Assembly (NCBI GenBank): GCA_025363015.1
Contig: JANYEQ010000107.1
Location: 1 to 34,202, forward strand
Direction of reading: 5' to 3'
Length of the DNA: 34,202 bases
Source: Bacteroidota bacterium
GTDB taxonomy: Bacteria > Bacteroidota > Bacteroidia > B-17B0 > Aurantibacillaceae
Shown piece after piece: positions 32,037-34,202 of the stretch. Position 1 is the stretch's first letter. The number at the start of each line of letters is the position of its first letter. The translations under genes were made by a program, and so were the position numbers. Below the pieces are notes generated by a model. It was given only the letters and a program-made list of their open reading frames with translations. It ran no database searches and was not told the origin of the DNA.

Positions 32037-33776
32037 ATGAATTCAAAATTTTTACGCACAATTGGAGCCGGATTATCGGTAGCTGTTATTTTAACTAGCT
32101 GCGATGGATTAGGTAAAATGATTAAAAAACAAAAAGACATTAAATATACTGTGTCGCCTAACCCTATTGAAATGATTGGAGACAGCATTCAATTTAGTGT
32201 TAGTGGCAAATTTAACCCAAAGTTATTTGCTAAAAAAGTAACTTTAACCTTAACTCCTAGTGTTAAAGGCGTTAATGGAACTGAAAAAATGTTAAAGCCA
32301 ATAGTGTTAGTAGGCGAAAAAGCAACAGGTAGTGGCCAAAAAATTGGTTACTCAAGTGGTGGTTCGTTTAATTATACATCCGAAAAATTTGCTTACGAGC
32401 CAAGCATGCGCAATGCTAAGGTTTATTTAAGCGGCGTTGGTTCGGTTAAAAAGAAAGAGAAAAAATTTACACCAGTAGAATTAGCCGATGCTACCCTTGT
32501 TACTTCGTTATTAGTTCGTAACGACGAAAAAGGAATTATGGCAAAAGATGCATTTGTAAAAATTACACCTGCAAATTTATCTACGCACATATACTACACC
32601 ATCAACAATTCAACCGTTCGCCCAGCCGAATTAAAATCAGAAGAAGCAAAAACCTTTAACGATTTTATTACTAAAAACATTAACTCACCTTGGTATGAAT
32701 TTAAAGGTATTGGTGTTTCGGCTTACGCTTCGCCAGATGGTGAAACCGATAAAAATGAGAATTTAGCTAAAGACCGTGCAAAATCAGGTTCTACAGCTAT
32801 TATGAGCGAGTTTAACAAAAACAAAAATAAAGAAAACACCTTTGGTAAAACAAAAGAACAATACGCAGTAGGTACTACTAAAGAAGATTGGGAAGGTTTT
32901 AAATCATTAATGGAAGCGAGTACAATGGCCGACAAAGATTTAATTTTACGTGTATTAACCATGTATAGCGACCCAGAACAACGCCGTAAAGAAATTAAAA
33001 ACTTATCAAAAACTTATACTGAATTAGCTGATAAAGTATTACCAAAATTACGCCGTAGCGAAATTACTGTAAACGTTGATAAAAAATCGCGTACAGATGA
33101 GCAAATTACTAAGTTAATGACGAGTAACCCTGATAGCTTATCAATTGAAGAGTTATTATATGGCGCTACCTTAACAAACGATGTAAATACAAAAGTACAA
33201 GTTTACCAAGCTGCAGAAAAACAATACGCTACAGATTGGAGAAGCGCTAACAACCTAGGTGTAGCTTTATTATTACAAAACAAAGTTACAGAAGCGGGTG
33301 ATGCATTTAAACGTGCCGAAAAAGCAAGTGCTGGCCAACAAGCTGTAGCTAACAATTTAGGTATTATTGAAGCAAAAAATGGTAACCGTGCTGCTGCAAT
33401 GGATTTATACAAAAAAGCAGGTGGTGCAGCCGAAACAAAATATAACATGGGTATTTTAGATGTACGTAACGGTAAGTATGCTGATGCAGTGAGTAACTTT
33501 GGCGATTACAAAGGCCATAACAAAGCTTTAGCACAATTATTGGCAGGTAGCCCAGGTGCTGTAAAAGAAACAATTGACGCTAGCAACGAAAAAGAAATGG
33601 CGTATAGCTATTACTTAAAAGCAGTAGCTGCTGCCCGTGCTAATAACAATGCAGATGTATTAAGCAACTTAAAAACAGCTATTGAAAAAGATGGTGCTTT
33701 AAAAGCCTATGCTAAAGACGATGCAGAATTTGTTAAATTACGTGCCGAAACTGGCTTTACAAGTTTAGTAAACTAA
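32037..33776 (+). CDS. Lipoprotein with OmpA-like region and TPR tail
   Basis: A 579-residue lipoprotein: signal with ILTSC, lipid cysteine at residue 22. Residues 35-200 are beta-rich, with a repeated pattern around VSPNPIEMIGDSIQFSVSG. About 218-265 resembles the peptidoglycan-binding part of OmpA-C (GIGVSAYASPDGETDKNENL followed by AKDRA), although the region between is longer than usual. About 365-500 holds tetratricopeptide repeats (WRSANNLGVALLLQNKVTEA, AVANNLGIIEAKNGNRAA, ETKYNMGILDVRNGKYADA). It would tether an outer-membrane or periplasmic complex to the cell wall. No T9SS component genes are adjacent, so a PorE/SprE-type role is only a possibility. It is monocistronic with a strong promoter and terminator, and its relatively G-rich, optimised codons suggest good expression. 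Confidence 0.85.
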   Translation: MNSKFLRTIGAGLSVAVILTSCDGLGKMIKKQKDIKYTVSPNPIEMIGDSIQFSVSGKFNPKLFAKKVTLTLTPSVKGVNGTEKMLKPIVLVGEKATGSGQKIGYSSGGSFNYTSEKFAYEPSMRNAKVYLSGVGSVKKKEKKFTPVELADATLVTSLLVRNDEKGIMAKDAFVKITPANLSTHIYYTINNSTVRPAELKSEEAKTFNDFITKNINSPWYEFKGIGVSAYASPDGETDKNENLAKDRAKSGSTAIMSEFNKNKNKENTFGKTKEQYAVGTTKEDWEGFKSLMEASTMADKDLILRVLTMYSDPEQRRKEIKNLSKTYTELADKVLPKLRRSEITVNVDKKSRTDEQITKLMTSNPDSLSIEELLYGATLTNDVNTKVQVYQAAEKQYATDWRSANNLGVALLLQNKVTEAGDAFKRAEKASAGQQAVANNLGIIEAKNGNRAAAMDLYKKAGGAAETKYNMGILDVRNGKYADAVSNFGDYKGHNKALAQLLAGSPGAVKETIDASNEKEMAYSYYLKAVAAARANNNADVLSNLKTAIEKDGALKAYAKDDAEFVKLRAETGFTSLVN

Positions 33777-33790
33777 TACTTTTTAATTAA

Positions 33791-33826
33791 AAAAAACCGT
33801 ACTAGCTCAGCTAATACGGTTTTTTT
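33791..33826 (+). terminator. Terminator after the OmpA/TPR lipoprotein gene
   Basis: AAAAAACCGTA pairs with TACGGTTTTTT; an inner TAGC/GCTA stem closes the loop TCA, leaving one C-A mismatch. A T run follows. It starts 14 bases past the stop codon. Confidence 0.88.
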
Positions 33827-33869
33827 ATTGGCATAAATTACCATATAAAAAAGGTTAGGCTGCTACCAT

Positions 33870-34034
33870 TTATACCAATTTTCGTTCAAAAAGATACAAT
33901 AGAAACGAAATTATTTTTTATTCAGACGATGAATAAAATCGTTGCATAGCCTAAGCTACGGAACTATTTTATGAAGAAGTATGAATGAAAAAGAATGAGT
34001 TTATGTGTATTTTTTTGAACGAATATTGGTATTA
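33870..34034. mobile_element. Palindromic MITE-like element
   Basis: Terminal inverted repeats of 21 bases agree at 20 positions (33872-33892 and 34012-34032, outer end ATACCAAT). The 159-bp body 33873-34031 is an imperfect palindrome throughout, centred at the TAGC-CTAA-GCTA (33947-33958) in its exact middle. Trinucleotide TTA occurs on both outer sides (33870-33872 and 34032-34034), possibly a target duplication. There is no coding capacity. I read it as a non-autonomous foldback element moved by a transposase encoded elsewhere. Confidence 0.7.
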
Positions 34035-34071
34035 GCTGCTCAATAAAAACAAATTGCAACTAAGACTTTAT

Positions 34072-34202
34072 TCAAATACTTGCGTTCGACTTGTGTAAAC
34101 CAAGCCGTTGAAAAATAGTAAGTACTTCGGTTTTCAAAGTGAAAAAACTAACCGGTTGTTCTTTTTCAAGCCAGGATTCCGGTGCGCGTCTGCCGGTCAT
34201 TG
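34072..34202 (-). pseudogene. Truncated 3' part of a pheT-like gene (partial at window edge)
   Basis: The frame entering from the right edge encodes 42 residues before TGA: MTGRRAPESWLEKEQPV, then SFFTLKTEVLTIFQRLGL, then HKSNASI. The first 35 fit the central beta subunit of phenylalanyl-tRNA synthetase (pattern G-x-R-x-x-E-x-W, then V-x-F-x-x-LK, then the RLGL helix end). In intact PheT another 130-190 residues, including the anticodon-binding FDX-ACB domain, follow; here a stop comes at once, 38 bases before the palindromic element. Leucine codons are CTT, TTG, CTT, CTT, TTA, while the neighbouring genes use almost only TTA, and the last 30 bases are GC-rich. A broken or imported fragment is likely; the rest lies beyond the window. 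Confidence 0.55.

Follow-up and report, generated by a model that had tools for sequence, protein, structure and literature searches.

The window, i.e. the whole 34,202-nucleotide stretch of Bacteroidota DNA that was analysed (contig JANYEQ010000107.1 of assembly GCA_025363015.1), carries a long palindrome that stops 171 bp short of its end, which is also the contig end. The question raised by this locus is whether the palindrome is a mobile element, as the first-pass annotation had proposed, or a structured RNA bound to its place beside a gene, and, if mobile, what moves it and what its fold is for.

Position, symmetry and fold of the element

Direct reading placed the palindrome as annotated, with 159 bp (TACCAAT...ATTGGTA, 33873..34031, plus strand as defined by the tip) between two TTA copies at 33870..33872 and 34032..34034. 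Its symmetry centre, TAGC-CTAA-GCTA (33947-33958), lies exactly midway, as had been stated. The extent of the element was further supported by the fold and by flank statistics, the latter also supporting both TTA copies as target-site duplications, of which the left one has an empty-site parallel in another genome. The left terminal inverted repeat, TACCAATTTTCGTTCAAAAAG (33873..33893, plus strand), and the right one, TACCAATATTCGTTCAAAAAA in minus-strand reading (34011..34031), were read directly and recovered by the repeat search. Their reported match at 20 of 21 bases is obtained if one flanking base per side is counted (ATACCAAT...); the true termini, however, are TACCAAT and not ATACCAAT, because the extra A belongs to TTA.

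The inverted-repeat search returned arms of 27 nt (33872-33898 and 34006-34032) with 93% complementarity, alignment of the element with its reverse complement gave 76% identity over 161 bp, and a strand-symmetric alignment gave Watson-Crick pairs at 61 of 78 arm positions. The RNA fold of the element reached -57.9 kcal/mol, compared with -25.3 ± 3.7 kcal/mol for shuffled sequences (z = -8.9; none of 200 shuffles as good). Together with the pairing counts, this z-value puts the palindrome far beyond chance. The element thus folds end to end, but the description "fully palindromic" goes too far, as the palindrome is imperfect and contains internal loops, which recur in its relatives. A conserved hairpin tip, TTGCATAGCCTAAGCTACGGAA (33942..33963, plus strand), with loop CTAA and recurrent G.G and A.C mismatches, was delimited from the alignment and the covariance model. 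The apical 84-nt region (33911..33994, plus strand) matched this model, R1, with 102 bits, the window sequence being one of its 29 building sequences.

Upstream lies a gene for a TPR-like protein of 579 aa (32037-33776), followed by an intrinsic-terminator-like inverted repeat found by the repeat search (33790..33826, plus strand), which is a neighbour outside the element. The annotation of this region as the terminator of an OmpA/TPR gene was borne out for the terminator-like repeat and, by weak Pfam models only, for TPR, whereas the Pfam search returned no OmpA domain in the gene. Comparison of 33700-34202 with Rfam gave 38 matches with E-values up to 10, none above its own gathering score.

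Dispersed copies, duplicated flanks and the orthologous region

The own genome (143 contigs) holds four full copies with 98-100% identity, on contigs C126, C9, C60 and C108. With the element start set at TACC, their flanking triplets are TTA/TTA, TGA/TGA, TTA/TTA and TAA/TTA, i.e. equal in three of the four. BLAST returned relatives in 13 of 60 genomes, including the own one, 11 of them of the genus; the matches in the other two, of 30-34 nt and in other families, we take for chance. The copies of the genus share the core, and their outer arms differ yet still pair. The window element is thus short with terminal inverted repeats, flanked by a target-site duplication and present in several dispersed copies, as is characteristic of a MITE.

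Across the family, whose copies fall into end types A, B and C (defined below), equal 3-bp flanks were found in 42 of 61 type-A copies (TAA in 21, TTA in 20, TCA in one; shuffled mean 20.9) and in 12 of 24 type-B copies (shuffled mean 3.0), with none of 2000 shuffles as high in either case. All four type-C copies have equal flanks, which, being TTA throughout, are uninformative under shuffling. Flanks were unequal in 19 type-A and 12 type-B copies, some of which are wrong end assignments; visibly wrong A/B assignments (e.g. L060, L061, L098) were counted as misses. A TNA duplication is typical of the IS1031 subgroup of IS5, and the 3-bp duplication of TNA type found for type A is as expected of an IS5-derived element. 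In another genome (L251), a filled site, GATTTA-element-TTAACC, stands beside its empty version, GATTTAACC, in a tandem duplicate, which supplies the kind of empty site that the first-pass annotation had suggested looking for. A reading of the ends as TA-targeting (Tc1/IS630-like) was rejected, since this empty site fits duplication of TTA and not of TA.

A search with the upstream gene gave matches in 38 of the 40 genomes of the genus, including the own one. Twenty loci were retrieved, the window's own and 19 from relatives; among the latter, L293 was cut before the downstream region, which left 18 usable. As the gene next after the orthologue differs among relatives, the comparison concerns the region 3' of the gene rather than strict synteny. 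The covariance model matched the window's own locus, gave no match at 17 of these 18 loci and one match in G015, and reading by eye of 16 of them (L288 and L289 were scanned with the model only) found the hairpin absent in 15. The G015 copy (L287:3404-3488), located 3' of the orthologue of the TPR-like gene, is an independent hairpin on the opposite strand with different arms. Absence from 17 of 18 loci along with this independent copy indicates that the site is insertion-variable and that the region was struck twice independently. A terminator-like repeat is found 3' of the orthologous gene in most of the relatives' loci that were read.

A structured RNA fixed at this locus, or a hairpin that regulates the TPR-like gene, would account for the strong fold, the covariation and the place 3' of the gene's terminator, but it does not agree with four loci in one genome, with the lack of a model match at 17 of 18 relatives' loci after the orthologous gene, with the lack of any Rfam match above gathering score, or with the equal flanks and the empty site. 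A locus-bound RNA is refuted by the dispersed copies, the absence in relatives, the flanks and the empty site, and we leave this reading next to no probability. The proposal of a mobile element with a TTA duplication is accordingly upheld by the four dispersed copies, flanks equal beyond shuffling, the empty site and the absence at orthologous loci; a single copy conserved at this locus, which the first-pass annotation had named as the outcome that would speak against mobility, is not what the copies in the genome and the loci of the relatives show.

Spread, end types and the search for a transposase

When species genomes were scanned once with the tip pattern TTGCATAGCNNAAGCTACGGAA, 68 contigs were returned, whose titles all name Bacteroidota lineages or Chlorobiota. 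Many come from the same genomes, and the tip of all 68 is invariant by construction, as the pattern was required. The conserved tip of the family reads GCATAGC..GCTACGG. The covariance model (84 positions, built on 29 sequences), whose search is not bound to the tip pattern, also recovered tips such as AAGCATAGCCGTAGCTATGGTT and AGGCATAGCCGTAGCTACGGCG. It rings in 7 of 395 genomes of the phylum, including the own one, which corresponds to a patchy spread, as for mobile elements; the copy numbers per genome are lower bounds, with 11 candidates scored in each. No match to the hairpin was found in phage and plasmid records.

From 163 rows, 118 hairpins were kept by hand, and 117 after one at an edge was dropped. 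Opposite-strand matches, repeat visits and copies that were cut, rearranged or carried inserts were left out, while a few rearranged ones stayed (e.g. L130). End types were assigned to 89 of the 117, namely A (TACC/TACG) to 61, B (GAAGT/GAACT) to 24 and C (GGGATGGG) to four, with 28 untyped; at least three end types thus occur in the family. The length is 159-161 bp in 76 of the 89 typed copies (54/61 of A, 18/24 of B and 4/4 of C). None of the 108 hairpins with enough flank lies inside an ORF of at least 100 aa. Relative to the flanking genes, 43 of these copies run along and 25 against, 23 lie between convergent and 15 between divergent genes, and two were unclassed.

Ends of the window type also occur with other interiors. 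In the own genome, a 613-bp element (C13:54174-54786; L019:1501-2113) combines them with a different interior containing 8.7 copies of a 41-bp minisatellite, and two further ends without the window interior were found at C17:22005 and C115:1332, the former opening an element similar to that of C13. With up to three mismatches allowed, an end pattern matched 176 times in G254 and 193 times in G218, compared with 15 and 25 times in the respective reversed controls; elements with ends of this kind, counting mini and composite forms, are thus numerous in both genomes. In G254, mini-elements of ~40 bp have kept only the two ends (TACCAATTTAATTTTGAAATGTCGTATTGTTAATTTGGTA in L180; also L184, L192 and L200), which suggests that ends alone may suffice for mobility; those at L176 and L178, likewise of ~40 bp, have altered right ends. 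Six other loci of this genome (L186, L194, L196, L198, L204 and L265) carry one or two extra hairpins of ~50 nt (..CACGAAC..GTGAG..) within the arms, with the same tip on top. In G218, the same left end is followed at L183, L185, L187, L195, L199 and L203 by long arrays of nested small palindromes (GAATGTAGTTGC..GCAACCCGATG, GGAACCGAGGCC..), with a matching right end found in L187 and L199 and visible in L203. The hairpins L089, L123 and L131 of Cyclobacteriaceae 4R5-16-G switch just after GGAAC to a common AAACCC.. sequence, which would fit insertion of another element at a TTAA-like site; a TTAA-targeting IS1380-type element as the inserter is our guess only.

For type B, an insertion sequence with the same ends was found. 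The single-contig genome G159, which has both type-A and type-B hairpins, contains four IS copies of about 0.92-0.93 kb that start with GAAGTGATTTAAACTTTTT; three of them terminate in GAACTCATTTAAACTTTTT and the fourth, L230, in GAAGTCATTTAAACTTTTC. These ends equal those of the local type-B hairpins (GAACTCGTTTAAACTTTTT, GAAGTGATTTAAACTTTTT), and three of the four copies have equal 3-bp flanks (AAT, ATT, ATA). The L230 transposase belongs to the IS5 family, with 120.8 bits for NF033580 against a cut-off of 110 and with DUF4096 and DDE_Tnp_1 above their cut-offs. The IS5 clade of NF033580 (transpos_IS5_3) thus has termini and 3-bp flanks in common with type-B hairpins, whereas type-A ends match no element found. 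A frameshifted relative with AAT/AAT flanks and GAAGTGATTTAAAC ends was found in the Cyclobacteriaceae genome from which 17 of the 68 tip contigs come and which carries type-B hairpins, and a decayed one in Pricia antarctica. The G159 transposase was searched for in 14 other genomes, all of them hairpin carriers, and returned none, an empty answer that carries little weight without a positive.

A transposase with TACCAAT ends, which the first-pass annotation had asked for, was not found by the end-pattern search of the own genome, at the DDE_Tnp_1 loci of 11 relatives, by protein search or in a TIR-pair scan of the loci fetched by then. The latter gave six rows, and those at L019, L024, L067 and L265 were rejected as separate elements or ordinary genes. 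DUF4096 was detected in one of the 40 genomes of the genus, as a broken frame in G026, where BLAST gave no hairpin, and yielded no TACCAAT-ended mover. Also rejected were the IS5-type gene of the type-A carrier G465, which is intact but has visible ends GAAACTGTTTAAATTT and not TACC, and an IS5-like gene at the end of the own contig C108, which has other ends. The hairpin genomes G254, G282 and G423 gave no DDE_Tnp_1 match at all, which leaves present mobilisation there without explanation. The search for matching ends therefore succeeded for type B, where a same-ended parent IS is present in G159, and not for the window's type A, where none with TACCAAT ends was found in the draft genome; a MITE need not have its parent in the same genome, because the parent may have been lost. 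From the shared ends we infer mobilisation in trans by IS5-type transposases, which would recognise the ~20-bp ends and move the element into intergenic DNA, the one for the window's TACCAAT ends presumably being absent from the draft genome or missed.

A mover of another kind would be an HUH tyrosine transposase (RAYT), carrying a REP/BIME-like palindrome through ssDNA, which would explain why the fold of one strand is important. Agreeing with this, Y1_Tnp matches occur in eight of nine genomes examined, including the own one (G000:C136), a hairpin lies within 1.5 kb of all three Y1_Tnp loci of G218, and one strand is preferred in folding. Y1 transposases, however, are not known to make a target duplication, and the equal 3-bp flanks and the empty site are clear; the close hairpin of L251 sits in a duplicated gene piece and is itself an insertion with a TTA duplication; and G015 has hairpins and no Y1_Tnp match. 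RAYT/Y1 was rejected as the mover, both for the 3-bp duplications and because in the closest pair the hairpin has inserted into a duplicated gene piece, and it appears extremely unlikely. REP sequences, as passages of PMC3733652 describe them, are palindromes of 20-40 bp with a GTAG (or CGTC) tag at one end, and the window element, with its 159 bp, TACC..GGTA ends and duplications, is not REP-like. As a separate observation, the own genome encodes a RAYT-like Y1 transposase of 190 aa (G000:C136:2918-3490, L264; Y1_Tnp, 27 bits), and several further genomes with hairpins have Y1 frames of 176-210 aa that score weakly.

Conservation of the fold and preference for one strand

Among 29 diverse sequences, 16 of 22 apical pairs are changed on both sides, and apical cells are paired in 92.5%, compared with 69.6% when shuffled and 41-56% when slid, with the structure derived from the same alignment. 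Part of these sequences had been selected with the tip pattern, so that little weight comes from the tip pairs, four of which are invariant. In an ungapped comparison of 53 clusters (<75% identity), identity was 0.69 at the tip but fell to 0.32-0.34 at depth 44-80, against 0.29-0.30 for shuffled sequences; at this depth the arms are near-random between clusters, yet 0.67-0.84 of the positions are Watson-Crick within an element.

The palindrome could still be a by-product, i.e. the element an ordinary MITE whose long terminal repeats go back to a single IS end duplicated in inverted orientation, without selection for folding. Type-B ends do match IS5-type termini, and near-identical copies within a genome need no such selection; but outer arms that differ between clusters to this extent and still pair inside each element, a length of 159-161 bp kept in most typed copies across three end types, a tip with recurrent mismatches and an excess of G.U over A.C in every lineage all argue against this reading, which we regard as unlikely.

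This excess is found in the lower arms. A strand-blind alignment of the arms at depth 30-80 gave 458 G.U against 116 A.C over all copies and 210 against 62 over clusters, counts that are all inflated by shared descent. G.U exceeded A.C in the lower arms of 24 of 24 lineages (our own grouping) and, at depth 11-80, in 42 of the 48 untied clusters out of 53. At depth 0-30, the reverse was observed (258 A.C against 74 G.U), owing to conserved mismatches and loops, which limits the wobble rule to the lower arms. With RNA parameters, the plus strand folds more stably in 49 of 53 clusters, and with DNA parameters in 52; as both favour it, RNA and ssDNA are not told apart. Transcription-linked mutation was discarded as the principal source of the G.U surplus, since the ratio of G.U to A.C is 4.24 in copies against the flanking genes and 3.93 in those along them (5.38 convergent, 3.0 divergent; 101 of 117 copies classed). 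Fresh changes within families (31 G.U and 21 A.C) do not differ from even (p = 0.21) and are less skewed than those between clusters (Fisher p = 0.014); because they lean the same way, part of the asymmetry could be mutational.

A DNA cruciform extruded by both strands, or a dyad operator bound at its duplex tip by a dimeric protein, would be in keeping with a long imperfect palindrome and with the near-symmetric TAGC..GCTA dyad of the tip. A G.U pair on one strand is an A.C on the other, so that a cruciform, in which both strands are equal, cannot favour either, yet one is favoured in 49 of 53 clusters; moreover, the tip shows a recurrent G.G mismatch rather than symmetric half-sites. We consider this explanation very unlikely, and the strand preference points to selection on a single-stranded fold, of RNA or ssDNA, rather than on a cruciform. 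The window palindrome is most probably a non-autonomous IS5-type MITE, a member of a hairpin family of Bacteroidota and Chlorobiota in which the fold of one strand appears to be under selection; it is called IS5-type because the GAAGT/GAACT end type matches intact IS5-family insertion sequences. Judging from the base-pair statistics, folding of one strand would be required, either as ssDNA or as RNA made by read-through from a promoter nearby, and this fold would favour the spread of the element or render its insertions harmless. Proteins are predicted to bind most likely at the conserved tip and the internal loop.

Related systems and significance

A whole-length hairpin, which had been thought unusual, is less so in view of ERIC, YPAL/RU-2, RPE and Correia elements, which passages of PMC2229807 also describe as long stem-loops. 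ERIC and YPAL are the nearest known kinds. According to passages of PMC2229807 and PMC10969869, ERIC/IRU resembles the window family as a long stem-loop that is mostly intergenic, has a target duplication and occurs in many copies, and orientation-dependent RNA effects are reported for it. ERIC is set apart by its description, with 127 bp instead of 159-161, 5'-TA-3' termini and Enterobacteriaceae/Vibrionaceae as hosts; the window element (159 bp, TNA duplication) is therefore not ERIC by length and duplication, the features compared in place of the consensus with what passages of PMC2229807 give. The same passages present YPAL/RU-2 as a Yersinia palindromic sequence of ~168 bp, alike in size, palindrome and known empty and filled sites, but with duplications of 3-26 bp, internal inverted repeats, a composition that is not A+T-rich and hosts from another phylum. 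Correia/NEMIS and RPE are described there as mobile elements of roughly 105-155 bp with RNA stem-loops, NEMIS RNA being a proposed RNase III substrate; their hosts and ends are others, and fusions to reading frames are described for RPEs and some Correia repeats, whereas none of the 108 hairpins assessed here lies inside an ORF of at least 100 aa. Among the MITEs of P. gingivalis (BrickBuilt, 464/PgRS), likewise from Bacteroidota and with ends akin to IS5-family elements according to PMC4596501, 464/PgRS holds 41-nt tandem repeats, comparable to the 41-bp repeats of the C13 sister element. BrickBuilt differs in its ends, GAGACCTTTGCA, and the main text of PMC4596501 lacks "palindrom" and "hairpin". 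Among the publications accessible here, no paper was recognised as describing the hairpin family. The constant apex and length on exchangeable ends, with strand-specific pairing, look new.

Bacterial MITEs are usually seen as passive IS leftovers. Here, the constant part is the hairpin tip and the length and not the ends, which are of several types, while the arms covary. With the covariance model, a repeat family without a match in Rfam can be annotated. If strand-specific folding does drive spread, the family would allow the dependence of small mobile repeats on RNA or ssDNA structure to be tested directly. Tentatively, the hairpin itself, with its constant tip, internal loop and fixed arms of ~80 nt, may be the heritable unit, which would have swapped IS5-type transposases by changing its ends, kept its arms matched and owed its success to the fold of one strand, as RNA or ssDNA. 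If so, selection would act on a structured single strand in an element that is transposed as DNA and has spread across a phylum.
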